From positions 1-64,000 of the forward strand of contig ONKD01000013.1 of the NCBI GenBank assembly GCA_900318345.1: DNA of 64,000 nucleotides, read 5' to 3'. Source of the stretch: an uncultured Prevotellaceae bacterium (GTDB taxonomy: Bacteria; Bacteroidota; Bacteroidia; Bacteroidales; Muribaculaceae). The translations under genes and the position numbers were made by a program. This document shows, in pieces, positions 6,409-24,069 of the stretch (position 1 is the stretch's first letter; every line of letters starts with the position of its first letter). The notes beneath the pieces are model-generated. The model was not told where the DNA came from, did no database searches, and worked only from the letters and a program-made list of their open reading frames with translations.

Positions 6409-8982
6409 TTAATTTCCCCCCATTCCGCTGCCGTTAATGTTGCCAGCGCCGGTATTGCCCGACTGCTTGCCGCTGCCGATGAGGTCGTCGTTCTCGATGG
6501 TCTTGCTGGACTTCTTCACCGAAGACTTGAGTGAGCCGAAGCGGTAACTGATGTTGATGCCAAACCTGCGGGCCTGTTGCTCATAGCGTGTCCATCCCGT
6601 CACATCGCCCTGGGTCATGTACTGCTTCATGCTCATATACTTGCCACTGAAGGGAACTATTGCTTGCAACTGGACGGTCAGGCGATCCTCCTTGAGAAAC
6701 GAGCGCTGCAGGGAGAATCCGTGGAAGAACACGGTACCCATGCGGCCATACAAGTCGTTGATACCACCGCCCCACATGCCAGCGAAGCCCGATAGTTGCA
6801 GCTTCCACGGCAGGAACTGAGTGACGTTGGCAAAGAAGTTGCCACTCACGCGGTCATTCTTCAGGTTCAGTTCGTTGCTCTTGTAGTAATTGTAGCCAAT
6901 TGAACCGTTGAGCATGAAGTTGGTCTTTTGGCTCACCATCCACTGAACAAAGGCTGACAGCGTCGTCGAGTAGGTCTTGAGCGTGTTGGCATATGTCGAT
7001 ACCTGCACCAGGCCGTCGGCCCACTTCACGGCACCGATGCCGTTGTTGCTGAACTGGAACTGCGGCGTGACGTTAAATGTCAGCTTGGGACCCACGCGCA
7101 TGTAGGTCAAGCTCACCGAGTGGTAGTGCACACTACCCAGGTCGGTGTTACCATATGAACGGCTTGTCGGGGTCTCGATCACTGCCGGATTCAGGTAGCT
7201 GATGCCAGGACGGTTGATGCTGGCGGCGTATGACAGTTTGAGGCTGTTGGCAAAGTCAAACTGGTAGCGCACACTCGCACTAGGCACGAAGTCGTTCAAG
7301 TGAGCCTCATAGGCAGGCTGCTGGCCATCGGGATAGGTGGCGCGCAGGTAGCTGTGCTCATAGCGCAGGCCTGCACGGGCATCCCAACTTCCGCTATGGA
7401 AAGTGTAGCTCAAGTAGGCGGCACCCACCTGGGTCACATGCTTGTATCGCATGTCGGTGTCATCGTCAACGCCCAGATAGTCCAACACGTTGTGGCTGCG
7501 GTTCAGGCGATAGATGTACTTAGCGCCAGTCTCGATGGTGTGCCTCTTGGCGAGCGGACGGGTCCAGTCGAGCTGCACAGTGTGCTCGTTGAAGTTCTCC
7601 TTGCCGTCCTGGTCAATGCCATAGTATGCCACAGGCATGTTAACAAGGTCGGTATAGCGAGAGTTGTCCAAGTTCTTGTTACGGAAGGCCGAGAGCATAT
7701 AGCTCAACGTGATGGTCTCGCCCTTCAGGCCCGTGCGGCGCTGATAGTCCATGCGGGTATCAAAGTTGTAGCTGTCTGACTTGGTGTGATTGTTCATCCC
7801 GTAGCTGTAGAGAGGTTGGCCCCCTGCATCGCTCATCAGGTTGCTGTTCACGCCGTTGCCGGCATAATTGTAGGCAAATCCGCTTAACGACCACGCCAGG
7901 AGGTTCAGTGTATCGGGTTCCCAACTGGCACTCACGTCACCAAAGTGGACGGTTACCTTATCTGCATCAAAGGTCGTGTTGCCCTGCAGTTCTGCACCGC
8001 TTTGAGTATAGCGGTTAAGCATTGATGAGCGATAGCCCTGTCCGTTGTTACCATCGTGATGGATACCATAATCCACCGACAACACCACCTTGTCGAGCTG
8101 GCTCGTCAGGTTTAATGATCCGCCTATTGCCCCCTTGTGGTCGGCTCTGGCCGAGGCCATGCCCGAAACGCCCTTGAGCGTCGAGTTGTCGGCCATGACG
8201 ATGTTGAGGATCATGGTCGTGCCCTCGGCGTCATACTTGGCACCGGGCTCGGTAATGACCTCGATGCGCTTGACGCTGCTGGCAGGCATCGCCTTGAGGA
8301 TCTCCTTGGCATTGCGCGAGAGCGAGGGATCAGGGTGACCGTTGCGGAAAATCTTGAAGTTCGTCTGGCCATTGACACGGATCTCATCACTGGCGTCAAC
8401 GCTTACCATCGGCACCTTGCGCAGCATCGTCAACACGTTGTTGGTCTTGCTGTCGGCATCGTCAGCAACGCTGTAGCCGATGCGGTCCACCTCCTGCTTG
8501 ATGAGCTGGCGCTGGGCCGTCACGGTCACATCCTTCAGTTGGATGTTGTCAAACACGCTCAGCAGCGAGTCGTTCACCCAATCGTCATCGTCGTTGCTCA
8601 CACTGGCATGCTGGCGAACCATGATCAGCGGCAGCTCATAGCCCATCTGGGTGAATTTGCCATCCAGCGTGTCGCCGAGCAATGTGGCGTTATATGTCGC
8701 ATACATTTCAGGGAAGCCCACAGTCAGCTTGCCGCCCTTGAGTGAGGCTTTGGCTTCATAGTTGTTTAATCCCTGCTCGGGGATGTCAAGAAATGCGTTA
8801 ATACCTTTTTCTGTCTGCTCCAGGGTCAGCGTCATGTTTACGCTGAACTGCATTTGCTTTACCTCAAGGGTACCGTTCCACTTCCCGTTGAAGTCTTGCT
8901 GTTCCTGGGCCTGTGCTGTCATGCTGCAGGTCAACAGCAGCATTGTGGCGAGCATCAGGTGTTTTAAATTGACTCGTTTCAT
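6409..8982 (-). CDS. TonB-receptor-like outer-membrane beta-barrel protein (paralogue A)
   Basis: An 857-residue protein with a signal peptide (cleavage near AQAQ). Residues about 28-122 (GKWNGTLEV ... FTQMGYELPLIMV) resemble the small beta domain that precedes many Bacteroidetes alpha/beta hydrolases. An acidic linker DDDDWVNDSLLSVFD then leads into a plug domain (about 155-275, ending VIEVITEPGAKYDAEG-like) and a barrel up to NISYRFG, followed by a Gly/Asn-rich tail ending GMGGN. This is the OMP_b-brl_3 type of TonB-dependent receptor. It has no CarboxypepD_reg domain and no SusD neighbour, so it is not a classic SusC. From the linker onward it is closely similar to the protein at 19971-22313. 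It is the last gene of a run that includes five related membrane proteins and a GH31. Confidence 0.82.
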   Translation of the reverse strand: MKRVNLKHLMLATMLLLTCSMTAQAQEQQDFNGKWNGTLEVKQMQFSVNMTLTLEQTEKGINAFLDIPEQGLNNYEAKASLKGGKLTVGFPEMYATYNATLLGDTLDGKFTQMGYELPLIMVRQHASVSNDDDDWVNDSLLSVFDNIQLKDVTVTAQRQLIKQEVDRIGYSVADDADSKTNNVLTMLRKVPMVSVDASDEIRVNGQTNFKIFRNGHPDPSLSRNAKEILKAMPASSVKRIEVITEPGAKYDAEGTTMILNIVMADNSTLKGVSGMASARADHKGAIGGSLNLTSQLDKVVLSVDYGIHHDGNNGQGYRSSMLNRYTQSGAELQGNTTFDADKVTVHFGDVSASWEPDTLNLLAWSLSGFAYNYAGNGVNSNLMSDAGGQPLYSYGMNNHTKSDSYNFDTRMDYQRRTGLKGETITLSYMLSAFRNKNLDNSRYTDLVNMPVAYYGIDQDGKENFNEHTVQLDWTRPLAKRHTIETGAKYIYRLNRSHNVLDYLGVDDDTDMRYKHVTQVGAAYLSYTFHSGSWDARAGLRYEHSYLRATYPDGQQPAYEAHLNDFVPSASVRYQFDFANSLKLSYAASINRPGISYLNPAVIETPTSRSYGNTDLGSVHYHSVSLTYMRVGPKLTFNVTPQFQFSNNGIGAVKWADGLVQVSTYANTLKTYSTTLSAFVQWMVSQKTNFMLNGSIGYNYYKSNELNLKNDRVSGNFFANVTQFLPWKLQLSGFAGMWGGGINDLYGRMGTVFFHGFSLQRSFLKEDRLTVQLQAIVPFSGKYMSMKQYMTQGDVTGWTRYEQQARRFGINISYRFGSLKSSVKKSSKTIENDDLIGSGKQSGNTGAGNINGSGMGGN

Positions 8983-9063
8983 AATTATCTCTGGGTTTAA
9001 TTGTTTTTGTTGTCTGTTAGATGCATAAGCAACTCAAAAAGTTTCAATCATGGGACCTTTTTT

Positions 9064-9576
9064 TCATTTCTCTCCCATGAGTTCCTTGATTTCCCTCACC
9101 TCACGACAATCCCTAGAAGTAGTAATATAGCACATCACGCAAATCACGATCCACAGGATGGCAATGAAAATATTCGGTTTCATCGTACCATTTAGATATT
9201 CAAATCCAAAGATGATGGCAAAGAATGCCACCAACACTATTGTCAAATAGATAGCCAATTTCTTCCTGTCATTGTCATTCACTCTCAGGAGTTCATTTAC
9301 ATCACGGGCTTTGCTCATGCGGGAATTAAACCGGATCGTCAGCCAGGTTGAAATGAAATACAATAGTATGAAGCCAGCCGATTCACAGGCCTTAATAGCA
9401 ATAGGCAGGGTGGAGGTGGTCCATACTAAGAACAAGAAGCATGCAAGGGCGACGATACCCGGTATCATTACCATCTTTTTTGTCTTGGCTGCACGGTCAC
9501 ACTTTTCGATTGATTGTTCAAACAGCTCCTGGATGCGCTGTTCTTTCTCGTTGTTGTTGAATTGTGAAGTTTCCAT
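9064..9576 (-). CDS. Small membrane protein, ELL-linker family, member 1
   Basis: A 170-residue protein with an N-terminal amphipathic segment (EKEQRIQELFEQSIEKC) and membrane helices at about 36-52, 66-82, 107-125 and 135-152. A cytoplasmic linker carries A-R-D-V-N-E-L-L-R-V-N-D between helices 2 and 3, and the C-terminus is REIKELMGEK. The same plan (N-terminal helix, hairpin, x-ELL-xxx-D linker, hairpin, LREL-like tail) recurs in seven other genes of this window. I know no family name for it. It has its own promoter at 9639-9671 and lies 81 nt upstream of outer-membrane barrel A, so it may be expressed with the barrel separately from the rest of the cluster. Confidence 0.72.
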   Translation of the reverse strand: METSQFNNNEKEQRIQELFEQSIEKCDRAAKTKKMVMIPGIVALACFLFLVWTTSTLPIAIKACESAGFILLYFISTWLTIRFNSRMSKARDVNELLRVNDNDRKKLAIYLTIVLVAFFAIIFGFEYLNGTMKPNIFIAILWIVICVMCYITTSRDCREVREIKELMGEK

Positions 9577-9613
9577 AATGAAGAAGTATTTTAGAGTTGA
9601 ATTATACTTTTCT

Positions 9614-9671
9614 AGTGTACTACTTAACTAGTACACTGCAAAGGTATAACAACTCAATCCTATTTTCCAAA
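9614..9671 (-). promoter_or_regulatory. Promoter with overlapping inverted repeat before ELL member 1
   Basis: On the minus strand TTTG (9671-9668) is followed after 21 nt by TACCTTTG (9646-9639). The inverted repeat AGTGTAC/GTACACT (9614-9620 and 9631-9637) covers the expected transcription start, which makes it a candidate operator. Confidence 0.6.
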
Positions 9672-9747
9672 TTATTTAACATTTTTTAAAGATTTTCTTT
9701 GTTTCTATCTCTTTTTTGCTCTTTAGACGCACTGAGACATCAATTTG

Positions 9748-10353
9748 CTACACGCTAGCCTCACTTTTTTCATCTTCCTGCTCGACAAGCTCCCTCAACC
9801 GTTCGACGTGCTTAATGGCGTATGAGTTAGCTGAAAGGAATATTTTCCTGCGCAACTTAGGCGATAAGACATAGCAGGCAATGAACAAAGCTAACAATAT
9901 AAAGATGGGGATGAAAATATAGTCCAGAGTATCAAGATGAGCAAAATCGGTGTCTATAATCATAACGAAAAGGTAATAGCAAAAAATAAAAAACAAAATA
10001 GCTAAACCACTGATGATCAATTTTTTCTCCATGCCTGTCAATCGATCAATGGTCGACAGCAGTTCGCTGGCGTCATCAGTCCTACTTATTTTTCTGTAAT
10101 TCAAGTACCGGAGTAGGCCAAAAAAGCTAACTGCTGCAAATCCTAGTGGCAAGATCATGTCATCCATTGAACCCTTTAGATAGTTCCATATATACAATGC
10201 AGACATTAGGGCAAAAACGATAGCCTCGGTAAGTCTTTCATGGCCATGTTTTACAAAGTAATTCTTGATGTAATCAACGAGCTCTTTCTTACTCATCTCG
10301 TTCAAACCGTCCTGTTCCTTGCTCTGGGAATTGAATATTTGTTTTAGTTCCAT
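9748..10353 (-). CDS. Small membrane protein, ELL-linker family, member 2
   Basis: A 201-residue protein with helices at about 42-58, 66-84, 112-132 and 144-164. Between helices 2 and 3 lies TDDASELLSTIDRLTG. The C-terminus VERLRELVEQEDEKSEASV is almost identical to that of member 8 (23527-24069), and even the DNA beyond the stop codon (GCAAATTGATG) is shared. The 20 nt before the start codon (AAAACCTAGAGATT) are shared with member 6 at 22359-22916. The start was chosen because of that conserved leader. It has the general look of an inner-membrane protein with both ends in the cytoplasm. The function is unknown. Confidence 0.72.
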   Translation of the reverse strand: MELKQIFNSQSKEQDGLNEMSKKELVDYIKNYFVKHGHERLTEAIVFALMSALYIWNYLKGSMDDMILPLGFAAVSFFGLLRYLNYRKISRTDDASELLSTIDRLTGMEKKLIISGLAILFFIFCYYLFVMIIDTDFAHLDTLDYIFIPIFILLALFIACYVLSPKLRRKIFLSANSYAIKHVERLRELVEQEDEKSEASV

Positions 10354-10395
10354 AATCTCTAGGTTTTAATTGTTTTTTTACTCCTTAGACGCAAC

Positions 10396-10431
10396 AATAA
10401 TCGGGAAAACTACAAAATTCTTCCGATTATT
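10396..10431 (-). terminator. Possible hairpin after ELL member 3
   Basis: AATAATCGG (10396-10404) pairs with CCGATTATT (10423-10431) just past the stop codon of the gene ending at 10463. The loop is 18 nt and no strong U run follows, so this may be an attenuator or simply a stem in the message. Confidence 0.3.
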
Positions 10432-10462
10432 TTCAAAATTAACAAATTTGATGTTTGTCTTC

Positions 10463-11125
10463 CTACTTTAGAAGTTCGCGCAGTTGCTTGATTTCATTAT
10501 CGGGGCCATCGTTTTTGGGGTTATATCCGGTATATCTCCTATACAAGAAAGTGCCGATGCTCAAGACTATAAATATTATGCCATCGGTAATATCACCCAT
10601 TACTATCAGGCATATTGAAAGAACAATAGCCGCAAACCACCACAGCATGTCTTCGGTGTCCATTTTGGCAGACAAGAGCTCCCTAGCCAAGATAAGAATG
10701 TTGATGACTTTGATTTCCAATGTGCTAGCAGAGATGATCGCATAAGCTATCGCGCCAACTGAGGCAATAGCTATGAGGTACCATTTCACTTTGCGCTCTT
10801 GATCAAGTATTCTTATCAATTCCCGAGCATCACTTACTTTATTAATCCGTTTTCCTGTAATGTAGGGGGAAAAGGTTTGGAAGAGAATGAAGACGCCAAT
10901 TAAGGTCCATATGGCAATGACAGCCCACTTGGGTCCGTCTATGATACTGATGTCAACCATATCCTTCGCTTCTGGTGCGTTTGTGTAATGGCCAAAGCCA
11001 ACCAATAGAACAAAGACGATGATGAGAATAATGTTCACGATAAATTTGGTTTTCATGCGGGCATAGTCGCGCTTGATGCTTCCCATCAGCCACTCGATCT
11101 CATGTTTCTTTTCATTCTCATCCAT
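10463..11125 (-). CDS. Small membrane protein, ELL-linker family, member 3
   Basis: A 220-residue protein. Its first 23 residues (MDENEKKHEIEWLMGSIKRD and on) are identical to those of member 4, and its last residues (EIKQLRELLK) nearly so. Membrane helices fall at about 27-45, 66-84, 114-133, 160-177 and 181-195. The linker between helices 2 and 3 reads KVSDARELIRILDQERK. The nearby 3' flanks of members 3 and 4 also match, so the two are a recent tandem duplication. The extra helices in the second half set this pair apart from the four-helix members. No catalytic motif is visible. The function is unknown. Confidence 0.72.
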   Translation of the reverse strand: MDENEKKHEIEWLMGSIKRDYARMKTKFIVNIILIIVFVLLVGFGHYTNAPEAKDMVDISIIDGPKWAVIAIWTLIGVFILFQTFSPYITGKRINKVSDARELIRILDQERKVKWYLIAIASVGAIAYAIISASTLEIKVINILILARELLSAKMDTEDMLWWFAAIVLSICLIVMGDITDGIIFIVLSIGTFLYRRYTGYNPKNDGPDNEIKQLRELLK

Positions 11126-11170: not shown

Positions 11171-11800
11171 TTACTTTAGAAGCTCGCGCAGTTCCTTGAT
11201 TTCAGCTTCAGGACCATCATTTCTTGGTTCATATCCGATAAATCTTTTCACTAGGAATGTTACGACAATTATAATGAGCATGATGATTCCAAAGAATACC
11301 TCTCCCAGGATAATTATGCCGATTGCAGCTACACAAGCTACCAGCCAAGGTATCAATTTTTTAGTGTCCTCAGCAACTATAAACGCATAAATTAAACTGT
11401 AAAGGAATACTGCCGCCATCTCTCTCAAATCATCAGTAGAAAAATATAACAAAACCAATCCCGCCACTACAATAATGACTAGAAAAGGCAGATACAGTTT
11501 GCGGTTATTGTCATAAATCCGTAGCAACTCGCGGGCATCTTCAACTTTTTCAATCCGTTTCCCTGTTACGTAATCCATGAAGCCATAGCCAAGGCAAACA
11601 GCTCCAATGATGATACATAATACAGTATCGGCTAGTGACATCAGTTCATGATTGCTGAACAATAAGTATATGCACAAGCCCACAAACACACAGAAAATGA
11701 AAATGAGTGTAAAGATATTGTTTTTATTGATACGGGCATAGTCGCGCTTGATGCTACCCATCAGCCACTCAATCTCATGTTTTTTTTCATTCTCGTCCAT
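11171..11800 (-). CDS. Small membrane protein, ELL-linker family, member 4
   Basis: The ATG at 11800 is chosen over the one at 11809 because it reproduces exactly the N-terminus of member 3 (MDENEKKHEIEWLM). The 209-residue product has about five to six membrane helices, the linker KVEDARELLRIYDNNRK and the C-terminus EIKELRELLK. It begins 12 nt after the stop codon of the GH31 gene, which argues for translational coupling and a shared message. The function is unknown; the protein is an inner-membrane type with charged cytoplasmic ends. Confidence 0.74.
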   Translation of the reverse strand: MDENEKKHEIEWLMGSIKRDYARINKNNIFTLIFIFCVFVGLCIYLLFSNHELMSLADTVLCIIIGAVCLGYGFMDYVTGKRIEKVEDARELLRIYDNNRKLYLPFLVIIVVAGLVLLYFSTDDLREMAAVFLYSLIYAFIVAEDTKKLIPWLVACVAAIGIIILGEVFFGIIMLIIIVVTFLVKRFIGYEPRNDGPEAEIKELRELLK

Positions 11801-11812
11801 AAAGTTCATTTC

Positions 11813-14212
11813 TTAATATTTGTCGATTTCGATAATGGTCGTTTGGGCGATATCAGGAATCGATACGGGGATAGTGAGCGTTCTAGTTTGCTTATCATAA
11901 CCCACGCCCTTGGCTTTCTTGCCGTTGATTTTCACCTTCTTAGGCTTAGGGATGGAGGGAATCACCAGGCGATAGTCCTTGTTGGGCGTGTCTCCGTCGA
12001 TGTTGCCCCTGCCCTGGATGTTGATGTAACACGTCCTTCCCTGCGGTGTGGCGACAAATTGGATCTCGCGGTGCTTATCTCTATCGAGTGTGCCTGTGGA
12101 ATGCAGGTCGTCGTCAAACAGGGTATAGGTTGACGGCGTGTCACTGAGATAATAAATAAGGTCTAGCTTGTCGGGATTGTAATCGCCCACATTCTGCATC
12201 TCATAGTTGGCTTGAGGGATGAAAGATCCGGCGCGGACAAACAGTGGCAGCACCTCGATGGGTGCGTCATAGTTGATTGTGCTGTGACCCTCATAGCGGC
12301 GCTCGGGGTGGTTCATGTCAACCCATGTGCCGTCGGGGAAGGTGATCTGGCGGCTCACGGCACCCTGTTGCATCACGGGAGCCACCATCACGTTGCGGCC
12401 CCACAGGTACTGGTCATTGATGTGGTCATAGCGGGCGAAATTCATGTCGTCCTCATACATGCCCAGCGGCCTCACCAGGGGCAGTCCGTTGCGGGCGTTG
12501 TCATAGGCCAGCGTGTAGTTATAGGGCAGCCACCTGTAGCGCTCCTTGATGATGCGCAGCGTCAGGTCGCCAAACTCCTTGTAGTTGTAGGGCTCGGCCT
12601 GGTAGGTCGAGTGGGTGCGCAGCATGGGTGAGAACAGACCCAATTGCAGCCAGCGGATGTAGAGTTCGCCATCGCGCTTGTTAGCGGGATCAACAGCAAA
12701 TCCGCCCACGTCATGAGACATGTAGCCCAGTCCGCTCAGGCCCGTGTTGAGCATGATGGTCACCTGGGGCTGCATACCGCCCCACGAGCGGGAAACGTCG
12801 GTCGACCAGGGGAAAACAGAGTAGCGCTGCAGGCCAGCAGTGCCGGCGCGCATCATCACCATCGGGCGACGGTCGGGGTACTCCTCCTTGAACATATCAT
12901 AGATGATCTTGCTCCACTCGTTGCCGTAGTAGTTGTGATATTGCTCGGCGGTCAGACCGTTCCAGTGGCGGATTTCCAGAGGGTGCTTCTCGGGCTCGCC
13001 CAGGTCGCCCCACCAGCCGGTCACGCCCTCCTCGGTGAGCGATTTGTAGCGGTTGCGCATCCATTGGCGCGTGGCGGGGTTGGACACGTCAAACATGCCG
13101 CCCTGGCCCACCCAGATGGTCACCGTGTGGGTCGTGTCGGTGCCGTCGGTCTTGCAGAACAGGCCCTGCGGGTCTAGCAGGCGGTAGTTGTCGATGGCGC
13201 GCCCGTTGGTCAGCACATAGGGCTGTGAGATGGTCACCACGTTTACGCCTTTCTCCTTGAAGTCGCGCATCATCTGGCGGTGGTCAGGCCATTGGTCCTT
13301 GTCCCATTCCAGGCGGCCCATGTCTTCCTCCTTGCCATACCAGTACAGGTCAAACACGATGCCATCCAGCGGATAGCCCTCGCGCTTGAGCGTATCGACC
13401 ACGCCCTCGCTCTCGCGCTGGTCGTGGTAGCCATACTTCGAGGTGATATAACCCAGTGTCCATAGTGGCGGCAGCTCCTGACGGCCCGTGAGCCAGGTAT
13501 AGTTCTTGACCACGTTCTCGACACGGCCGTTGCCGTCGATGACGTAATAGGAGATGGGTTGCGGCGAGGTAGTGGTATATTCCAGTTGTCTGTCACCCAG
13601 GACGAGCGATGACTTGCAGAAGTCGTCAAACAACAGGCCGTAGCCTTTGGACGAAATCACCATCGGCATGGTGATGCCCATCAGCTTGGTGCGGGCTTCG
13701 CCCATCTGGTAGCCGTAGTTCTGGCTATTATAGTTGATGAGTGTGTCGCCTGCTAGGTTAAACGAGTAACCGCGCTCGCCAGCACCATAGAATGACTCTC
13801 CTGGTTTATGCATCAGCACCACCCGTGACGAGTCGCGTTTGCGCAGGTTATCCATAAAATAGTCGGTATTTCCATGATATGCCTCAATCAAGCCAGATGG
13901 CTTTGATAAGGACACGGTCAGGCCGTTTTCGGTGACTATTGAGCCCACTTGGCTGTTTTCGTTTATCTTCACCTTGGGGACGCGGCCGTTCAAGGCCTTG
14001 TCGCTGGCCAGGGTCTGTAACCGCGTGCCGTTCCATCCATCGGGCACCACATCCACCTTCACGATGTCATCGCTGATGGCGGTAAAGGTGATGGTCTGGT
14101 GACGCGTCGTGTCGTTGACTGTCAAACTCCTCTCTTGCCCCGTAGCAACCATCGCCATCATGGTCACAGTGACCAGGGTTATCATCCTGATAAGTCTCAT
14201 ATCTCTATTCAT
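11813..14212 (-). CDS. Glycoside hydrolase family 31 (alpha-glucosidase or transglucosylase)
   Basis: A 799-residue protein with a signal peptide (residues 1-25, cleaved near VATGQ). An N-terminal galactose-mutarotase-like beta domain is followed by a (beta/alpha)8 barrel. The nucleophile is Asp403 in GWWGDLGEPE and the probable acid/base Asp472 in FPWSTDVSRSW, 69 residues apart. The DLGEPE form resembles the oligosaccharide 4-alpha-glucosyltransferase branch of GH31 (Cellvibrio Agd31B) more than plain xylosidases. A C-terminal beta-sandwich closes the protein. It should act on alpha-glucans in the periplasm or at the surface. It is embedded in the membrane-protein run, overlapping member 5 upstream by 8 nt and preceding member 4 by 12 nt, which is unusual company for a GH31. 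The internal Met5 is an alternative start. Confidence 0.88.
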   Translation of the reverse strand: MNRDMRLIRMITLVTVTMMAMVATGQERSLTVNDTTRHQTITFTAISDDIVKVDVVPDGWNGTRLQTLASDKALNGRVPKVKINENSQVGSIVTENGLTVSLSKPSGLIEAYHGNTDYFMDNLRKRDSSRVVLMHKPGESFYGAGERGYSFNLAGDTLINYNSQNYGYQMGEARTKLMGITMPMVISSKGYGLLFDDFCKSSLVLGDRQLEYTTTSPQPISYYVIDGNGRVENVVKNYTWLTGRQELPPLWTLGYITSKYGYHDQRESEGVVDTLKREGYPLDGIVFDLYWYGKEEDMGRLEWDKDQWPDHRQMMRDFKEKGVNVVTISQPYVLTNGRAIDNYRLLDPQGLFCKTDGTDTTHTVTIWVGQGGMFDVSNPATRQWMRNRYKSLTEEGVTGWWGDLGEPEKHPLEIRHWNGLTAEQYHNYYGNEWSKIIYDMFKEEYPDRRPMVMMRAGTAGLQRYSVFPWSTDVSRSWGGMQPQVTIMLNTGLSGLGYMSHDVGGFAVDPANKRDGELYIRWLQLGLFSPMLRTHSTYQAEPYNYKEFGDLTLRIIKERYRWLPYNYTLAYDNARNGLPLVRPLGMYEDDMNFARYDHINDQYLWGRNVMVAPVMQQGAVSRQITFPDGTWVDMNHPERRYEGHSTINYDAPIEVLPLFVRAGSFIPQANYEMQNVGDYNPDKLDLIYYLSDTPSTYTLFDDDLHSTGTLDRDKHREIQFVATPQGRTCYINIQGRGNIDGDTPNKDYRLVIPSIPKPKKVKINGKKAKGVGYDKQTRTLTIPVSIPDIAQTTIIEIDKY

Positions 14213-14897
14213 TATTTTTTGTGTTTGTATTCATTTCAATCCTTGACTCGCTCTCTTTCACGAGTTCTCGCAAGCGCTTGAAATCTTGCTCGTCTTCTTC
14301 ATCCAAGCCTTCACTATCTTTATTTGCAAATAATGATTTTTCCCCTCTCATGATTGAAAGCATCGCTATAAGAAGGGACAATTCCACGAGAAGCCCAACT
14401 CGAGAGAAGTAGAGCAAGACACTCTCTACTATCAATAGAATGATACCTACCCATAACCTCAACCTTTGTTGCATGGCCAGCCATCCAGCGAGAATCAGCA
14501 ATAACCCGCTTAAGATTATGCATGCTTTAGACACAAAACCACCATCACCCCAAAAAGCCATGACAACAACAATAACCATAAAAATAGTTGACTGGATTTT
14601 CCACATCCGGTCATGGGCGGCCAACAATTCCTGGGGAGTCTCGGCACGGGCCATCCTTTTGTGAGAGACATAACTAATCAGTGCCGACAAGAGGAACACT
14701 CCCCCCAATAACAACATGAGAGGCACTACCGAAAAGTCATTAGCACCACCAAAGAAGAACATCATTATAAGGCCAAAGGCGATGAGTATAATGGACAAGA
14801 AAAGGAGCGTATAAGTCGTGCTACGCCCTCCGATAGCCGATCGTTTGATGCTTCTCATTAACCACTCTATCTCTTTGTTTCTTTCTTCTTCGGTCAT
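14205..14897 (-). CDS. Small membrane protein, ELL-linker family, member 5
   Basis: The ATG at 14897 is preferred over a GTG at 14906, because the resulting N-terminus MTEEERNKEIEWLMRSIKR lines up with members 3 and 4. The 230-residue protein has several membrane helices, the linker AETPQELLAAHDRMWK, and a C-terminal cytoplasmic region with FKRLRELVKESES followed by a polar tail. Its stop codon overlaps the GH31 start by 8 nt, so the two are translationally coupled. It is the first gene of the cluster and has its own promoter. The function is unknown. Confidence 0.72.
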   Translation of the reverse strand: MTEEERNKEIEWLMRSIKRSAIGGRSTTYTLLFLSIILIAFGLIMMFFFGGANDFSVVPLMLLLGGVFLLSALISYVSHKRMARAETPQELLAAHDRMWKIQSTIFMVIVVVMAFWGDGGFVSKACIILSGLLLILAGWLAMQQRLRLWVGIILLIVESVLLYFSRVGLLVELSLLIAMLSIMRGEKSLFANKDSEGLDEEDEQDFKRLRELVKESESRIEMNTNTKNNE

Positions 14898-15069: not shown

Positions 15070-15162
15070 CGCGGATGCTCAATTCGATTAATTCGTGTAA
15101 TTCGTGGATTTAAGAAAGAACGCGGATGCTCAATTAGAATAATTCGCGCAATTCGTAGTTTT
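15070..15162 (+). repeat. Two imperfect 42-nt repeats in the dnaB leader
   Basis: Two copies (15070-15111 and 15121-15162, period 51) begin CGCGGATGCTCAATT and continue with ATTCG-rich sequence. A shorter degraded piece, GCGCAATTAGTAG, follows at about 15169. They lie directly before the dnaB start codon. Confidence 0.65.
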
Positions 15163-15190
15163 TAAAAAGCGCAATTAGTAGTTTTAAGAT

Positions 15191-17694: not shown

Positions 17695-19647
17695 ATGAAA
17701 AAAATGATTTTAGCTATGGCCATATTGATGGCTGCTGTGCCTGGCGTGAAGGCACAAGTGACTCACGGCGTGAACCGCGCCGACATGGACCTGAGCGTCA
17801 AGCCGGGTGATGATTTCTATGAGTATGCCGGTGGTGGCTGGATGAAGGCCAACCCGCTGAGCAAGCATCCCGAGTATTCTTCCTATGGCGTCTTTAACGT
17901 GCTCGCCGAGGAGAACGAGAACCGCCTGCGCGACATGTTCCTGGAACTGGGCAAGACCGATCACAAGTTCGGCACTGTGGACCAGAAAGTAGCCGACCTG
18001 TACAAGATGGCGATGGACAGCGACCGCCTCAACAAGGAGGGTAAGCAGCCGCTGATGGCTGATCTGGCCAAGATCAAGGCTTTCAAGAAGGCTGACCTGA
18101 CACGCTTCATTGCCGACCAGCATCTGACGTTGAGCAATCCGTTCTTCAGCATCGGCGTCGAGACCGACCTCAAGAACAGTGACATGAATGTGATGTGGCT
18201 CGAGGCCGGTACCAGCGGTCTGCCCGACAGGGATTACTACCTCAACACCGACGCCGACAGCAAGAAAATCCAACAGGCCTACAAGGATTATCTCGTGAAG
18301 ATGTTCCAGCTCGCCGGTTACAGCAAGAAGGAAGCCAACCGCGCTAGCAAGACCATCTATGACATGGAGTACAAGTTCGCCCAGGCCAAGATGAGCCGCG
18401 CCGAGGCCCGTGACTACACCAAGCTCTACAACATCCGCACGCTGGACCAGCTCCAGGCCGACTATCCCGCCATCAACTGGAAGGAATACTTCAAACTGAT
18501 GGGCACGCCCCAAGTGGAGTGGGTCATCCTGACCGAGCCCAAAGTGATGGCTGTGGCTAACGAACTGATGACCAAGCTCAGCGAGCAGCAGATGCGCGAC
18601 TACATGGCTGGTCTGCTCATCCGTGGCTCTGCCAACTACCTGAGTGACGAGTTCGGTGAGACTGCATTTGACTTCTATGGCCGCACCCTGAGCGGACAGA
18701 AGGAGCGCAAGCCCCGCTGGAAACGTGCATTGGGATTCCCCAACAGCCTGCTCGGCGAAGCCGTCGGCGAGATCTACGTGAGCAAGTATTTCGCTCATGG
18801 CAGCAAGGAGAAGATGCTGAAGCTCATCGGCGAACTGCGCAAGTCATTGGCCGCTCACATCGCTGGCCTGACCTGGATGAGCGAGCAGACCAAGATCAAC
18901 GCCCTGGTGAAGCTCAACGCCTTCACCGTCAAGATCGGTTATCCCGACAAGTGGCGTGATTACAGTGGCTTGCAGGTTGATCCCAGCAAGAGCCTGTATG
19001 ACAACATCAAGGCCGCTAGCCTCTATGAGACCCGCCGCAACCTCGACAAGATGGGCAAGCCCGTTGACCGCGACGAGTGGGGCATGACACCTCAAACGGT
19101 GAATGCTTACTACAACCCCACGACCAACGAGATCTGCTTCCCTGCTGCCATCCTGCAACCGCCCTTCTTTGATGTTGATGCCGACGATGCCACCAACTTT
19201 GGCGCTATCGGCGTGGTGATTGGCCACGAGATGACCCACGGTTTTGACGACCAGGGCCGCATGTTCGACCAGTATGGCAACATGACCGACTGGTGGACCG
19301 AGGAGGACAGCAAGAAGTTCCAGGAGGCTGCCGAGAAGCTCGCTGCACAGTTCGACCAGATCGTTGTGGTGAAGGACCAGCATGCTAACGGCCACTTGAC
19401 CCTGGGCGAGAACATTGCCGACCAGGGTGGCCTGCGCATCGCCTATGATGCATTCAAGACCACGCAGCAGTTCCGCGAGGGCAAGTTGATTGACGGCTTC
19501 ACTCCCACTCAGCGCTTCTACCTGAGCTATGGCCGCATCTGGGCCGACAACATGACCGAGGAGGCCATCTTCCAGCAGACCAAGAGCGACCCCCACAGCA
19601 TCGGCCGCTACCTTCGGTATCAAGGCTGGCGACAAGATGTGGCTTGA
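17695..19647 (+). CDS. M13 (neprilysin/PepO-like) metallopeptidase, C-terminus lost by frameshift
   Basis: The start at 17695 gives a signal peptide ending VKAQ. The zinc site is intact: HEMTH (511-515) and ENIADQGG (Glu572, Asp576). The substrate-binding NAYYNPTTNEICFPA is present. The family continues after HSIGRY with about 15 residues including a conserved Arg, then FG-x-K-x-GDKMWLDP and a final Trp. Here HSIGRY is followed by LRYQGWRQDVA and a stop. The true last segment, FGIKAGDKMWLDPADRAIIW, is still present in another frame at 19613-19675. About 44 nt are therefore missing at 19611-19613. The lost Arg corresponds to the substrate-binding Arg717 of neprilysin, so activity is doubtful. 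Confidence 0.9.
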   Translation: MKKMILAMAILMAAVPGVKAQVTHGVNRADMDLSVKPGDDFYEYAGGGWMKANPLSKHPEYSSYGVFNVLAEENENRLRDMFLELGKTDHKFGTVDQKVADLYKMAMDSDRLNKEGKQPLMADLAKIKAFKKADLTRFIADQHLTLSNPFFSIGVETDLKNSDMNVMWLEAGTSGLPDRDYYLNTDADSKKIQQAYKDYLVKMFQLAGYSKKEANRASKTIYDMEYKFAQAKMSRAEARDYTKLYNIRTLDQLQADYPAINWKEYFKLMGTPQVEWVILTEPKVMAVANELMTKLSEQQMRDYMAGLLIRGSANYLSDEFGETAFDFYGRTLSGQKERKPRWKRALGFPNSLLGEAVGEIYVSKYFAHGSKEKMLKLIGELRKSLAAHIAGLTWMSEQTKINALVKLNAFTVKIGYPDKWRDYSGLQVDPSKSLYDNIKAASLYETRRNLDKMGKPVDRDEWGMTPQTVNAYYNPTTNEICFPAAILQPPFFDVDADDATNFGAIGVVIGHEMTHGFDDQGRMFDQYGNMTDWWTEEDSKKFQEAAEKLAAQFDQIVVVKDQHANGHLTLGENIADQGGLRIAYDAFKTTQQFREGKLIDGFTPTQRFYLSYGRIWADNMTEEAIFQQTKSDPHSIGRYLRYQGWRQDVA

Positions 19648-19693
19648 CCCCGCTGATCGCGCAATCATCTGGTAATCATTAATTTGAAATATC

Positions 19694-19735
19694 ATATACT
19701 AAGCCCGCAACCATACTGTTGCGGGCTTAGTATAT
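19694..19735 (+). terminator. Terminator of the M13 peptidase gene
   Basis: A perfect 18-bp stem (19694-19711 with 19718-19735, loop of 6) lies 19 nt after the ancestral stop codon at 19673-19675. That distance supports the view that 19675, not 19647, was the original gene end. Confidence 0.75.
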
Positions 19736-19789
19736 AATATCACTACGTGATTATCAGTTGGCATTAAGCGAATTAACTCACATTGCCCT

Positions 19790-19814
19790 GTAGAGACGCA
19801 AATCTTGCGTCTCC
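19790..19814. repeat. Single palindromic GAGACGCAA repeat
   Basis: The perfect palindrome GAGACGCAA-ATC-TTGCGTCTC, preceded by GTA, is the same unit as the array at 24204-24340. The two sites bracket the second barrel cluster. Confidence 0.7.
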
Positions 19815-19843
19815 ATGAGCCCCGTTGCAGCGTTGTTCTGTAT

Positions 19844-19862
19844 TGCGGGTTGTCAACCCGCA
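19844..19862 (-). terminator. Possible terminator of the second barrel cluster
   Basis: TGCGGGTTG and CAACCCGCA pair around a single base. A one-base loop is too tight, so two inner pairs would open in RNA. It lies past the stop of barrel B at 19971, but the U run is weak. Confidence 0.35.
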
Positions 19863-19970
19863 TCCCGCGTCAGCCGCGGCTCCGTTCGTCAATCATTTTT
19901 AAATCAAATTCGCTGCCCGCCTGTAGGGCGGTTATTATCCCAGCAAATGACTTTCTATCAGCCTCATCCG

Positions 19971-22313
19971 TCAATTGCCGCCACCCATGCCGCCGCTTGA
20001 GGAGCCACTGCCGCCTCCTGAGCCGCCACCGCCCATGAGGTCATCGTTCTGGATGGTCGTGTTGGCCTTTTTCACCGAGGCCTTGAGCGACCCGAAGCGG
20101 AAACTTACCGAGATGTTAAAACTGCGCTGAATATACCTGCTGCGAGACCAGCCGATCACATCGCCCTGGTCGATGTCACGCGTGTAACTGTGGTACTTGG
20201 TGAATGGGTTTTGGGCCGACAGCTGGACCGTCAGGCGATCATCGCTCAGGAACGAGCGCTGCAGGGCAAAACCATGGAAGAACGTCGAGCCATTGGGATG
20301 GCCATACACGTCATACACTCCTGAGAACCACGTGCCGCCATAGGCCGACAACTCAATGCTCCAGGGCAGGTATTGGGTCAGGTTTGCGAAGATACTGCCG
20401 TTCAAGCGGTCATTCTTCAAGTTCAGCATCTTGCTCTTGTAATTGTTATAGCCAATCGAGCCATTGAGCATGATGTTGGTCTTCTCCGATGCCATCCACT
20501 GCACGTATGCCGACAGGCGGGTGGAGTAACTCCTCAGGTTGTTGGCATAGGTTGATACCTGCACCAAGCCGTCGGCCCACTTGACGGCACCGATGCCGTT
20601 ATTGCTGAACATGAAACTGGGTGACAGGTTAAGGGTCAGTTTGGAACCCACGCGCATGTATGTCAGGCTCATTGAGTGATAATGCACGCTGCCCAGGTCG
20701 CCATTGCCATAGCTACGGCTGGTGGGGCTCTCGACCACGACGGGGTTCAGGTAGTAGATGCTCGGGCGGTTGATGCTGGTAGCGTATGAGAACTTGAGGC
20801 TGTTGGCATCGTTGATCTGGTAACGCACGTTGGCGCTGGGCACCAGATCGTTGAGATGGGTCTCATAGGGCTCCTGAGTGCCGCCTGGATAGGTCGCGCG
20901 CATGTAACTGTGCTCATAGCGCAGGCCGGCACGCACCGACCACGGCCCGTTATGGTAGGTATACCTCGCATAGGCCGCTCCCACCTGGGTCACGTGCTTG
21001 TAGCGCGTGTCCATGTCGTTGTCGATGCCCAGGTAGTCGATCATGCTGTGGCTGCGGTTCATGCGGTACATGTATTTGACGCCGGTCTCGACGACATGTT
21101 TCTTCTCGGCAAAGGGGCGCGTCCAGTCGAGCTGGACAGTCTGCTCGCCGAAGTCTTCTTTACCGTCTTGATTGACACCGTCATAAGGCACGGGCATATT
21201 GAACTGGTCGCTGTATTGTGAATATTGCTTGTCCTTGCTGTGCGATGTCGTGAACATGTAGCTCAGCGTGATGGCCTCGCCCTTGCGGCGGGTCAGGCGC
21301 TGGTAGTCAATGCGGCTGTCCAGACTGTAGCCTTTCATCTTGGAGCGGTCGTCCATGTTATAGCTATATAGGGTTTCCCCGACCGCATCTCGCATCAAAC
21401 TGCTGGAAAAACCGTTATACCTATAGTTGTATAGATATCCGCCCAGTGACAACGACACGAGGTTCAGCGTGTCAGGTTCCCAACTGGCATTCAGATAAAC
21501 GTAGTTGGACGTCGATTTGCCCGCATCAGAGACACCCTCCTCAAGCAGTTCAGCGCCCCTCTCCCGATATTGGCTCAGCGCCGTGCTGGTGCTCTTTTGA
21601 TTATGTCCGTCACTGTAATAGGTGCCATAATCCACCGACATTACCACTTTATCGACCTGGGTGGTCAAGTCCAGCGAGCCGCTATAGTTGCCCATGTCAT
21701 CAGCACCGCCTCTGACCATGCCCGATACGCCCTTGAGGGTGGAGTTGTCGGCCATGACGATATTCAGGATAATGCTCGTCCCCTCAGCGTCATACTTGGC
21801 CCCCGGCTCGGTGATGACCTCGATGCGCTTGATGCTGCTGGCGGGCATCGACTTGAGCAGGTCCTTGGCGTTGCGCGAGAGCGTCGGGTCTGGGTGACCG
21901 TTGCGGAAAATCTTGAAGTCGGTCTGTCCATTCACGCGTATCTCATCGTTGGCGTCAACGGTCACCAGCGGCACCTTGCGCAGCATGGTTAGCACATTAT
22001 TGGTCTTGCTGTCAGGATCGGCCTCCACATTGTAGCCGATGCGGTCCACCTCCTGCTTGATGAGTTGACGTTGCGCTGTCACCTCCACATCCTTCAACTG
22101 GATGTTGTCAAACACGCTCAGCAGCGAGTCGTTTACCCAATCATCGTCATCACCACTGGTGGGAGCGGCCTGACGCGTCACCGAGGTCGTGTCATTCATC
22201 TGCTTAGTTGAGCAATTCAACGTATCTGTGCCATTGTTCTGTGCAAAAGCTGTCATGCCACACATCAACGCGGCGATGACACATAATAGCTTTGATATCA
22301 AAAAAGGTTTCAT
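19971..22313 (-). CDS. TonB-receptor-like outer-membrane beta-barrel protein (paralogue B)
   Basis: The ATG at 22313 gives a clean signal peptide (MKPFLISKLLCVIAALMCG to AFAQ); the start at 22334 adds seven residues. The 780-residue product has a short spacer, the acidic linker DDDDWVNDSLLSVFDNIQLK, a plug domain and an OMP_b-brl_3 barrel ending NISVSFRFG, then a Gly/Ser tail ending GMGGGN. From the linker onward it matches paralogue A closely, including long identical plug segments, but it lacks the approximately 95-residue N-terminal beta domain of A. It follows three ELL-linker membrane proteins, the same arrangement as cluster A. No SusD homologue is adjacent. Confidence 0.82.
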   Translation of the reverse strand: MKPFLISKLLCVIAALMCGMTAFAQNNGTDTLNCSTKQMNDTTSVTRQAAPTSGDDDDWVNDSLLSVFDNIQLKDVEVTAQRQLIKQEVDRIGYNVEADPDSKTNNVLTMLRKVPLVTVDANDEIRVNGQTDFKIFRNGHPDPTLSRNAKDLLKSMPASSIKRIEVITEPGAKYDAEGTSIILNIVMADNSTLKGVSGMVRGGADDMGNYSGSLDLTTQVDKVVMSVDYGTYYSDGHNQKSTSTALSQYRERGAELLEEGVSDAGKSTSNYVYLNASWEPDTLNLVSLSLGGYLYNYRYNGFSSSLMRDAVGETLYSYNMDDRSKMKGYSLDSRIDYQRLTRRKGEAITLSYMFTTSHSKDKQYSQYSDQFNMPVPYDGVNQDGKEDFGEQTVQLDWTRPFAEKKHVVETGVKYMYRMNRSHSMIDYLGIDNDMDTRYKHVTQVGAAYARYTYHNGPWSVRAGLRYEHSYMRATYPGGTQEPYETHLNDLVPSANVRYQINDANSLKFSYATSINRPSIYYLNPVVVESPTSRSYGNGDLGSVHYHSMSLTYMRVGSKLTLNLSPSFMFSNNGIGAVKWADGLVQVSTYANNLRSYSTRLSAYVQWMASEKTNIMLNGSIGYNNYKSKMLNLKNDRLNGSIFANLTQYLPWSIELSAYGGTWFSGVYDVYGHPNGSTFFHGFALQRSFLSDDRLTVQLSAQNPFTKYHSYTRDIDQGDVIGWSRSRYIQRSFNISVSFRFGSLKASVKKANTTIQNDDLMGGGGSGGGSGSSSGGMGGGN

Positions 22314-22358
22314 GATACTTGTCGGGTTAAGCAAAAGGCTTCATTATCTCTTCTTGAT

Positions 22359-22916
22359 TTATTGTTCTCTCTTTGCCAATTCGCGGACATCGTCCTCCAA
22401 ATCTGCAGCGCTCTTGTAGACTGACGATTTATCATATGTCACCCAGTATACAAACACAAAGATAGCAAAGAGGATCGCGGCAAACACTATCCTGCCGATG
22501 CCACTTGTGTCATAAATGATATCCACTAATATATAGAGGTAAAAAAAGAACAGTGCCAATAAGCTGGCAACTCTCCCACGCTTCCTATAGCGCAAAACCC
22601 CTTCAAGCTGTTCTTGTCGGGTCGCATGCTTGAACTTACCGACCCAGAGCTGGTCGATTACCGATAGGATCATGTACACAAGAGCAAAGACCGAAACAAT
22701 AATCATCTTGTAGCCCATTTGAGGCTCAATGGGGCGTCCATAGAGTGACAGCCACAGGTAATAAGTGATCAATGCAAGAGCGAACACCACACTCCATCTT
22801 GAAGTTTTCATAATCTTGGCAAGAGCTTGGTCAACACGCTCGCTCAACTCTTGCTTTGTATCGATGGCACCCTGATTATCACCACGGGCACCGACATTCA
22901 TCTTATCCTGTTCCAT
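22359..22916 (-). CDS. Small membrane protein, ELL-linker family, member 6 (divergent)
   Basis: A 185-residue protein with an N-terminal polar segment and amphipathic helix (ELSERVDQALAKIM), helices at about 42-58, 69-87, 114-134 and 142-159, and the C-terminus LEDDVRELAKREQ. The central linker (ATRQEQLEGVLRYRKRG) keeps the position but not the exact ELL...D motif, so this is the most diverged copy. Its 5' leader (AAAACCTAGAGATT before ATG) matches that of member 2, 13 kb away. It lies 45 nt upstream of barrel B, the same place that member 1 holds before barrel A. The function is unknown. Confidence 0.7.
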   Translation of the reverse strand: MEQDKMNVGARGDNQGAIDTKQELSERVDQALAKIMKTSRWSVVFALALITYYLWLSLYGRPIEPQMGYKMIIVSVFALVYMILSVIDQLWVGKFKHATRQEQLEGVLRYRKRGRVASLLALFFFYLYILVDIIYDTSGIGRIVFAAILFAIFVFVYWVTYDKSSVYKSAADLEDDVRELAKREQ

Positions 22917-22983
22917 AATCTCTAGGTTTTATTTGTCCTTATATATTTAACGCGCGATGGCATCAATTTGCAACACGCTAGCC

Positions 22984-23472
22984 TCATTTTTTTTCATCTT
23001 CCTGCTTGACAAGTTTCCGCAACCGATCAATTTCTTTATTCTGAAACCCGCTAAATATCAAGCCGAACAAAAACGCTATGGCTATAGCAATGGCGGCTTT
23101 CACGATTAGGAAATAATTGTGTTCCAAGGCTAAACGGATGGCCTGAATGGCAGCGAAAATAAGAATGGCGATTATACCCTTATATGTCGCCTTATCATAT
23201 AGGTGCAATAATTCCTTGGCATCTTCAATAGGCTCAACTGATTTAATGTAGATGTAATTGATGAGAATAATCGCCGTTAACAACATGATCACCAATAAAG
23301 TGGTGAGGTCCTCAATGACTGTACCATTAATCACCTTCCATGCTAGCTCAGCAATGAACACGCCTAAACCAAAGCCACAAAGCCATTTGTTTAAGTTTAG
23401 CTTTGAGTGATAATCGTCTTTGATGCGCTTCACTAGCTCTCGCTTCTCGATATTGATTTCATTCTGTTCCAT
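22984..23472 (-). CDS. Small membrane protein, ELL-linker family, member 7
   Basis: The ATG at 23472 (MEQNEINIEKRELVKRIKDD) is chosen by comparison with member 8; a start at 23511 is possible. The 162-residue protein has four helices (about 30-46, 56-76, 99-117, 122-141), the linker PIEDAKELLHLYDKATYK and the C-terminus IDRLRKLVKQEDEKK. Members 2 and 8 continue SEASV after EDEK. Here the A run is 8 long instead of 6, the frame ends at once, and the homologous SEASV-coding DNA survives unread after the stop. The function is unknown. Confidence 0.7.
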   Translation of the reverse strand: MEQNEINIEKRELVKRIKDDYHSKLNLNKWLCGFGLGVFIAELAWKVINGTVIEDLTTLLVIMLLTAIILINYIYIKSVEPIEDAKELLHLYDKATYKGIIAILIFAAIQAIRLALEHNYFLIVKAAIAIAIAFLFGLIFSGFQNKEIDRLRKLVKQEDEKK

Positions 23473-23526
23473 AATCTTCAGGTTTTTATAGCTTTTATCC
23501 TTTAGACGCACGCGGGCGTCAATTTG

Positions 23527-24069
23527 CTACACGCTGGCCTCACTTTTTTCTTCATCCTGCTTGACAAGTTCCCGCAACCGATTGATATCCTTGCCTTGGC
23601 GGGGCTTGACAAATATCATGAGAGCAATCAAGGCGACAGCCAAAGCCGCTACAATCACAGCCCACATCATCTCATGATTGATAATCAGTTTGGACAGAAC
23701 AAATACGGCTATGATGACTAGCATCACACTAACACACACCTTATTCTCTCTGGTGTCTCTATCGGTAGCTTCAAGCAAATCTTGAGCGGTCTCGGCATGC
23801 AGTACCCGCTTACTCCAATAAAATCTCCTGTAGTCGACTGCGATTAGCAAAATGGCATATATAATACAGAACGCCAAATAAATGGATTGTTCCAGTCCGA
23901 ACGTTCCTTCGGTGATTTTATCGTATAGAATCACAAAAGGGAAAAACGCTAGAAAAATGGTCTGGGCAATTCTCCACCACTTGTTTTTGGGCCAAATGGC
24001 GTTTTCATATACCTCCTTGATGCGCTCCATCAACTCCTGCTTCTCGATATTGATTTCTTTCTGTTCCAT
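23527..24069 (-). CDS. Small membrane protein, ELL-linker family, member 8
   Basis: The ATG at 24069 (MEQKEINIEKQELMERIKEV) is preferred over 24108 because the preceding AAACTTGAAGATT leader is conserved with other members. The 180-residue protein has four membrane helices, the linker AETAQDLLEATDRDTRE (close to the AETPQELLAAHDR of member 5) and the C-terminus INRLRELVKQDEEKSEASV. It is the first gene of the second cluster; its upstream region contains the 55-bp tandem repeat. The function is unknown. Confidence 0.72.
   Translation of the reverse strand: MEQKEINIEKQELMERIKEVYENAIWPKNKWWRIAQTIFLAFFPFVILYDKITEGTFGLEQSIYLAFCIIYAILLIAVDYRRFYWSKRVLHAETAQDLLEATDRDTRENKVCVSVMLVIIAVFVLSKLIINHEMMWAVIVAALAVALIALMIFVKPRQGKDINRLRELVKQDEEKSEASV

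Follow-up and report, generated by a model that had tools for sequence, protein, structure and literature searches.

The 64,000-nt stretch of DNA analysed here (the window; positions 1 to 64,000 of contig ONKD01000013.1, forward strand, assembly GCA_900318345.1, from an uncultured Prevotellaceae bacterium placed in the Muribaculaceae by GTDB) carries two runs of genes for small membrane proteins, here called ELL proteins after a motif in their linker, and each run closes with a gene for an outer-membrane barrel. What such proteins do in repeated arrays in front of a barrel is the question raised by this locus. Our best reading, to which we give a probability of about 0.4, is that they are orphan anti-sigma-like inner-membrane modules, many of which are induced together with the barrel. 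Genes are named by their first window position (Table 1); L numbers denote loci, and C numbers contigs of the same genome.

All eight ELL open reading frames (ORFs) are on the minus strand, five in run 1 and three in run 2. The starts of 23527 and 22984 were corrected to 24069 and 23472, respectively, because the longer ORF contains a promoter element. An earlier note on this DNA had proposed that the eight proteins form one paralogous family, and profile comparisons agree: each protein, left out in turn, scored 27.1-92.7 bits against the profile of the other seven, and none of 200 topology-preserving shuffles per test scored as high as the observed sequence in any of the eight tests (top shuffle 27.3 bits, for 9748, observed 42.6). 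Identity is low (14-24% to the first sequence), and on these profiles the eight window proteins are homologous beyond chance. The motifs ascribed to all of them were only partly found. The linker motif x-A-x-E-L-L-x-x-x-D is exact in three proteins (9748, 11171 and 22984), relaxed in four (9064, 10463, 14205 and 23527) and absent from 22359, and the C-terminal LREL(V/L) is exact in five (9748, 10463, 11171, 14205 and 23527) and replaced by LRKLV in 22984, IKELM in 9064 and VRELA in 22359.

At least three further ELL members are encoded elsewhere in the same genome, on contigs C82, C57 and C46, in none of which a PF14905 (barrel) match was found. Judged by their labels (Muribaculaceae, Prevotellaceae, Porphyromonadaceae or Bacteroidales), the assemblies of the ELL-carrying genus come from the rumen and other gut sites. 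A solitary ELL gene with a near-identical N-terminus was observed in three genomes (L161 4246-4800, L130 6974-7507 and L055 2030-2632); in L161 it adjoins a small lipoprotein-like ORF (5075-5512).

The structure model of 23527 contains an N-terminal helix, four helices of transmembrane (TM) length and a C-terminal helix, with periplasmic loops of 3 and 5 residues; some other ELL members have longer loops. The model of 11171, made from a 212-aa ORF (pLDDT 80, pTM 0.73), has six possible TM helices, with confidence of 55-76 per block in the later ones. The N-helix, the linker and the C-helix are among the most confident parts of both models, and their mean identity (30%, 24% and 34%, respectively) exceeds the 14-19% of the TM helices. 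These three elements should face the cytosol because they hold most of the Lys and Arg residues. The ELL proteins would thus be inner-membrane proteins with four or six TM helices and both ends cytosolic.

As the earlier note had supposed, no known family matched: the eight proteins had no Pfam or NCBIfam family at cut-off, and the families listed for a 48-member ELL set matched only weakly, with many unrelated membrane families alike. Class I anti-sigma domains from Pfam and NCBIfam were found neither in the eight nor among the families listed for the 48 members (25 of 32 families in one listing and all 17 in another). STN, FecR and TonB/ExbBD were absent from the Pfam and NCBIfam listings for the window proteins, and neither barrel had an STN hit in Pfam with a limit of E=1. 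No description of the ELL family, its arrays or the element described below was found among the papers listed in the literature searches, which were largely openly accessible ones.

A putative ECF-type promoter in front of ELL and barrel genes

Several ELL genes and the barrel are preceded by a recurrent promoter-like element with the form TGTAGTTTTT-N12-GCGTCTAA or a variation on it. It had not been noticed in the earlier note, and it is a putative extracytoplasmic function (ECF) sigma factor promoter that appears to be the strongest organising feature of the short-form arrays. In the window it stands directly ahead of 9748, 22984, 23527 and barrel 1. The whole genome of this bacterium contains 15 sites at up to three mismatches, versus 0 for a reversed-pattern control.

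A position weight matrix (PWM) was built from 11 of 13 own-genome sites, all outside the window, leaving out two of the four three-mismatch sites, C33:182420 (with an opposite-strand sigma gene adjacent) and C43:146848 (with a 209-aa membrane ORF behind). A cut ELL ORF (L103 2-244) was removed before counting. Scores of at least 12 were obtained for 27/51 ELL genes, 22/34 barrel genes and 0/265 other genes of the same loci; at a score of at least 10 the counts were 29, 22 and 1. The 12 barrels lacking the element are the four short ones, four second barrels directly after an ELL gene, and those of L108, L109, L110 and L127.

The pattern with up to one mismatch occurred 130 times within the genus (control 0), spread over 29 of its 43 genomes, and was absent from all 28 other genomes (control 1). 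Twelve ELL-positive genomes of the genus had 2-10 sites each and 13 ELL-negative ones had 0-1, a comparison of 25 genomes in which kinship is ignored. Among sites more than 6 kb from ELL hits, with one contig-end copy removed, the figures were 1-8 and 0-1, respectively. That ELL promoters alone account for the extra sites is disfavoured, since the trend, with kinship again ignored, persists away from ELL genes.

The same element precedes two own-genome ECF sigma operons, C49 and C33, in each of which the sigma gene is followed by a gene for a 4-TM protein. With these two sites left out of the matrix, the C49 and C33 ECF genes had upstream scores of 30.0 and 21.3, at a distance of about 50-60 nt. 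An orthologue in another genome of the genus (L049) had 30.0, and an ECF relative from another family (L168) had 29.0; L169, L166 and L165 gave 15.7, 13.1 and 10.7. ECF sigma genes are usually autoregulated from their own promoter. Two tandem ECF sigma genes were observed in L168 (4206-6868), each followed by its own polytopic partner, one of them with a long soluble C-terminal part, and the TGTAGTTTTT/GCGTCTAA element is found only at the first of the two. The own genome has 14 sigma-70 region-2 matches, with partners listed for a part of them that does not include L171, L181 and L182, and against SigW models its sigma factors score below cut-off.

Further genes preceded by the element encode NfeD with a Band_7/SPFH protein, two M16 proteases, an ABC-2 exporter, Rce1-like, DUF3667, DUF2807 and DUF805 proteins, and small TM proteins, a gene content that points to an envelope-stress regulon. 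Membership of the short-form arrays and the barrel in this putative ECF regulon is well supported by the promoter sequences. The SigW regulon of Bacillus subtilis, in a different phylum, is likewise under an ECF sigma factor and contains many small membrane proteins along with NfeD/flotillin-type genes.

The two window barrels are 65% identical over 756 columns, in line with the earlier proposal that each run closes with one of two related barrels, and with 209.5 and 207.8 bits against PF14905 (cut-off 27) both belong to OMP_b-brl_3. Barrel 1 has an N-terminal extension of about 100 aa (NGKWNGTLEV...) that is missing from barrel 2; by eye, a 466-aa ORF of the same genome (L096 8726-10126) begins like this stretch. 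A barrel scan yielded 29 loci, 25 with a long-barrel orthologue and four with shorter barrels (L125, L126, L128 and L130). Since its patterns were derived from the window barrel, the scan picks up closely related barrels (that of L102 shares 98% identity with the window barrel). The 25 loci and the contigs surveyed for ELL genes are not independent sets, as L104, L105, L107-L109 and L122 are apparently shared.

A repeated link between ELL genes and the barrel outside this genome was borne out. In 18 of the 25 long-barrel loci an ELL gene lies immediately upstream on the same strand, and in three more (L104, L105 and L112) the ELL genes sit before an intervening second barrel; in L119, L123 and L127, counted among the 18, the adjacent ELL gene was detected only by the iterated profile, with another ELL gene just before it. 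No ELL gene is present in the remaining four (L103, L111, L116 and L121). The short-barrel loci have no same-strand ELL gene, and L130 has one on the opposite strand. The barrel is a frequent rather than an obligate partner of ELL genes, because ten ELL loci (L065-L072, L074 and L076) show no barrel within the 6-11 kb examined.

By eye, L111, L116 and L121 have two tandem ECF-type elements before the barrel with no ELL gene between them, and L103 has one element. That the four ELL-less barrels never had an ELL gene is disfavoured by the three that keep two tandem elements, and for the same reason these loci suggest that promoter-ELL cassettes come and go as units. A GH31 orthologue lies upstream of the barrel in 21 of the 25 long-barrel loci (77-92% identical in the best segment), and three of the four loci lacking it end upstream at a contig end. 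In 5 of the 21 loci (all within L102-L124 and L129), as in the window, it is preceded by a long-form ELL gene with a housekeeping-like element.

Probable distant relatives encoded after ECF sigma genes

The 48-member ELL profile was searched against 344 genomes, with up to nine candidates scored per genome, and 60 genomes had a match; the four best matches outside the genus and G233 were examined, and the rest were treated as noise. The two best (E=1.1e-8 and 2.1e-7, per genome) are each encoded immediately downstream of a sigma gene. Sigma-70 domains were confirmed in the upstream genes, with region 4 only in L157 and both regions in its orthologue L189. Four further orthologues, three of one type and one of the other, keep this place after a sigma gene (sigma genes checked in L185-L187 and L189). 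The third and fourth matches (L159 and L160) are not directly after a sigma gene.

Among 93 non-redundant small membrane ORFs, those ranking next after the ELL family, L140 apart, were ECF partners, with 35.1, 34.0, 26.3, 23.4, 22.4 and 21.0 bits, a rank that is partly selected in that L138, L139, L140 and L049 were originally fetched by ELL profiles. The others comprised one regulon gene (13.7 bits), one partner (11.7) and ORFs at 7.1 bits or less. Eight type-1 partners not selected by an ELL profile (28.6-1.8 bits) outranked 34 other small membrane ORFs (p=3e-5, with L140 excluded and many of the 34 being mutual orthologues). In hhalign comparisons, the ELL family against eight type-1 partner sequences gave 93.7% and a score of 50.5; none of 100 column shuffles exceeded 34.9, and three other membrane families scored 14.7-26.2. 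Against type-2 partners the values were 89.2% and 42.4, versus at most 26.6 in 60 shuffles. The 4-TM partners themselves have no Pfam or NCBIfam match over cut-off. Taken at the level of sequence, the ELL proteins are probably distant homologues of the 4-TM ECF partners, which are putative anti-sigma factors.

The resemblance to the 4-TM proteins after Bacteroidales ECF sigma genes includes probable distant homology, the 4-TM plan and the cytosolic N-helix, linker and C-helix, and for the own-genome partners also the promoter element. In contrast to these partners, the window ELL genes are not beside a sigma gene, are amplified in front of a barrel, and encode proteins lacking the first N-terminal helix of type 1. 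To class I anti-sigma factors (RseA, ZAS and RskA types) the likeness lies in the role suggested by the position of the relatives, since no such domain was found in ELL proteins; according to the part of the source available, class I domains are associated with only 6% of Bacteroidetes ECF factors (PMC7406223).

Two other systems connect ECF control with the outer membrane. The Dma/Reo anti-sigma factors of Bacteroides and Phocaeicola are described, in the available parts of two sources, as spanning both membranes in a single chain (PMC13088901, PMC13114119), which consists of one TM helix, a tether and a barrel at the C-terminus (PMC13088901). They share with the present case envelope-linked ECF control from the cytosol to the outer membrane, but the ELL proteins are small, polytopic and all-helical in the models, and the barrel is separate and of receptor size. 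FecIRA-type signalling likewise combines an ECF sigma factor, an inner-membrane regulator and a TonB-type barrel, whereas here no STN domain was found on the barrel, FecR was not found, and the sigma factor is encoded elsewhere.

Reading of the arrays and its alternatives

Under the preferred reading, the short-form arrays and the barrel would be part of a regulon controlled by an ECF sigma factor that recognises TGTAGTTTTT-N12-GCGTCTAA, likely the one encoded at C49 together with its C33 paralogue, both operons bearing the element. The ELL proteins, as distant relatives of the 4-TM protein found in the anti-sigma position in Bacteroidales, would have multiplied in their short forms largely as promoter-gene units before the co-regulated barrel; expression of the long forms at the GH31 gene looks constitutive. 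Because the cytosolic part is constant and the membrane part variable, one shared cytosolic partner with many membrane inputs may be envisaged, and because ELL relatives occupy the anti-sigma position, this partner would most simply be the sigma factor or its regulator. The cytosolic bundle of N-helix, ELL linker and C-helix would dock onto it, and the fast-diverging membrane domains would sense different envelope conditions. After the response has started, it could be damped or tuned by the many membrane-anchored modules of anti-sigma type that the arrays provide, with the barrel and other regulon members repairing or protecting the envelope.

We infer the anti-sigma role of the 4-TM partner, the binding of ELL proteins to sigma, and envelope stress as the trigger. 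The fullest version, an expandable, self-induced array with a constant docking bundle and varied sensors, some constitutive and many fired by the ECF factor, and linked to the barrel, is somewhat unlikely. If it were true, one envelope-stress sigma factor would be tuned by the gain and loss of promoter-sensor cassettes, a mode of control that was not found in the papers listed by the searches. As to how most Bacteroidota ECF sigma factors may be restrained, this work points to the 4-TM partner class. It also provides the putative promoter element of one ECF branch, and describes a genus that has multiplied relatives of the partner, many of them promoter-borne, beside an outer-membrane barrel. 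The overall picture is of a putative ECF regulon in which membrane proteins resembling the partner have been amplified.

Several observations weigh against the preferred reading, some of them concerning the regulon. None of the eight window ELL genes adjoins an ECF gene. With the matrix lacking the two ECF sites, scores were low at L167 (5.4) and at the second L168 sigma gene (6.1), and the element was not found near the start of six type-2 sigma genes. At score 12, 24 of the 51 ELL genes have no ECF-type element; 10 of these are inside runs, one follows the window GH31 gene, and 13 have within 160 nt the word TAnnTTTG, which the available part of PMC9723704 gives as the housekeeping consensus. 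The 13 include window gene 9064 and all six long forms preceding GH31, for which ECF-type elements number 0/6 (scores -1.7 to 6.8) and TAnnTTTG words 6/6; the comparison is informal, the 11 ELL genes inside runs or after GH31 having none. Because these 13 genes carry the housekeeping-like word instead, part of the ELL family is probably outside the regulon, and the idea that all ELL genes belong to it was dropped. Judging by these signals, 14205, the GH31 gene, 11171 and 10463 of the window look like one constitutive operon.

Others concern homology and binding. L140 scored similarly to the partners (26.3 bits), yet it is not the gene after a sigma gene. A first hhalign run with only two partner sequences gave 1.8%. 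When single partner sequences were tested against their shuffles, four of ten failed to reach significance (L165, L024, L168b and L169, with 157, 23, 23 and 27 of 300 shuffles as high), and the relation between type-1 and type-2 partners was not confident (6.2% and 31.8%). Foldseek against the PDB gave no match at E<=0.001 for the 23527 or 11171 model. Type-1 partners have an extra N-terminal helix that is missing in ELL proteins, the alignment beginning at partner column 33, and for this reason sigma-binding may have been lost in ELL proteins; a comparably short N-terminus is seen in type-2 partners of the kind found in L184-L187.

The main rival, a realistic possibility, is built on such a loss. 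The ELL proteins would then be stress-induced membrane effectors that kept the scaffold of the ECF partner, no longer bind sigma, and directly protect the inner membrane from membrane-active peptides, bile or toxins. Such direct protection is commonly ascribed to many small TM proteins in the SigW regulon of Bacillus, and companions of protective type (NfeD/SPFH, proteases and the exporter), the missing long N-terminal helix, the divergent and tandemly amplified TM domains and the housekeeping-like elements of some members would all fit. It is at odds with the conservation pattern, in which the three cytosolic elements rather than the membrane domain are most conserved, as suits a common cytosolic partner, and with the short N-terminus of the type-2 partners. 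A more radical alternative, that the similarity reflects the helix plan only and the ELL proteins are an orphan family partly in the regulon, is unlikely. Inflation of scores by transmembrane similarity, the failed shuffle controls, the failed two-sequence hhalign and the lack of a clear match between partner types argue for it, but the column shuffles and the three other membrane families score far below the observed values, and two independent best matches both lie after sigma genes.

The three remaining explanations take their cue from the neighbours or from weak profile matches. The earlier note had suggested a hetero-oligomeric complex of the inner membrane, working as a motor or in signalling, with the barrel as its direct target. 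Its signalling side gained something from the ECF-type promoter and the ECF-partner homology, and no support was found for its energising side. Recurrent adjacency and the promoter element common to the barrel are consistent with such a complex, but several ELL members have no nearby barrel, the periplasmic loops in the 23527 model are too short to reach an outer-membrane protein (those of some other members are longer), and ELL-less barrels that keep two tandem elements suit co-regulation better, so direct action on the barrel is improbable. Immunity or toxin-type membrane proteins (DUF443/TsaI-like tandem 5-TM proteins, or SLATT/4-TM defence effectors) are quite improbable. Tandem arrays are compatible with them, and Gpos_tandem_5TM matched 2 of 48 members (best E=0.0015), SLATT_1 2 of 48 (best 0.007) and, in PADLOC, SAVED_CHAT one (0.00045), two 4TM effector models one each (0.0028 and 0.0092) and RTasSLATT one (0.0064). 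All of these matches are weak, many unrelated membrane families score alike, the window proteins are far under the NCBIfam cut-off (TIGR01218, 12 bits versus 35), and Pfam found no toxin, nucleotidyltransferase or other defence partner among eight neighbouring window genes. A glycan-use locus, with barrel, GH31 and ELL proteins serving sugar uptake and breakdown, is very improbable: it has the frequent GH31-barrel linkage in its favour, but conserved neighbourhood alone could produce that linkage, the first gene of the GH31 operon has a housekeeping-like element and the barrel an ECF-type one, and by eye no GH31 was recognised next to any of this genome's three solitary ELL genes.

Features of the window

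The coordinates of the two runs are collected in Table 1. Gene 14205 has a housekeeping-type element (TTG..TAatTTTG) and no ECF-type element.

Table 1. Genes and promoter-like elements of the two ELL runs (window positions; leave-one-out, score against the profile of the other seven ELL proteins)
Feature	Position	Strand	Evidence
Long barrel, 857 aa, OMP_b-brl_3, end of run 1	6409..8982	-	PF14905 E=1.2e-61
Putative ECF-type promoter element of barrel 1, TGAAACTTTTTGAGTTGCTTATGCATCTAA	9017..9046	-	PWM 21.4
ELL protein, 170 aa; nearest promoter-like element housekeeping-type (TTG..TAccTTTG)	9064..9576	-	Leave-one-out 37.4 bits, 0/200 shuffles as high
ECF-type element about 150 nt before 9064, overlapping the 9748 gene end	9723..9752	-	GCGTCTAA match, spacing like others
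ELL protein, 201 aa	9748..10353	-	Leave-one-out 42.6 bits
Putative ECF-type promoter element of 9748	10385..10414	-	1 mismatch to consensus, PWM 28.0
ELL protein, 220 aa, long form, without own element	10463..11125	-	Leave-one-out 78.7 bits
ELL protein, 209 aa, long form, after the GH31 gene	11171..11800	-	Leave-one-out 92.7 bits; structure model
GH31 glycosidase gene within run 1, overlapping the 14205 gene end	11813..14212	-	PF01055 E=3.2e-84
ELL protein, 230 aa, long form, first gene of run 1	14205..14897	-	Leave-one-out 49.9 bits
Short barrel, OMP_b-brl_3, end of run 2	19971..22310	-	PF14905 E=3.7e-61
ELL protein, 185 aa, without ELL motif	22359..22916	-	Leave-one-out 27.1 bits, 0/200 shuffles as high
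Decayed ECF-type element before 22359	22946..22975	-	PWM 2.5, register same as others
ELL protein, 162 aa	22984..23472	-	Leave-one-out 49.0 bits
Putative ECF-type promoter element of 22984	23502..23531	-	PWM 14.7
ELL protein, 180 aa, 4-TM form	23527..24069	-	Model pLDDT 85, pTM 0.70
Putative ECF-type promoter element of 23527, perfect consensus	24099..24128	-	0 mismatches, PWM 30.4

The eight neighbouring genes scanned with Pfam encode a DnaB helicase, a YbjQ protein, M13 and M6 peptidases, GH31, a sodium:alanine symporter and two proteins without a confident family. The M6-type peptidase (2429-4675) is secreted and carries a C-terminal type I dockerin. Repeats were observed upstream of both runs: two 49-bp direct repeats, 84% alike, at 15070-15169, upstream of 14205, with which run 1 opens, and two identical 55-bp tandem copies with a partial third (GTAGAGACGCAAAATCTTGCGCCTCC...) at 24204-24368, just upstream of run 2.

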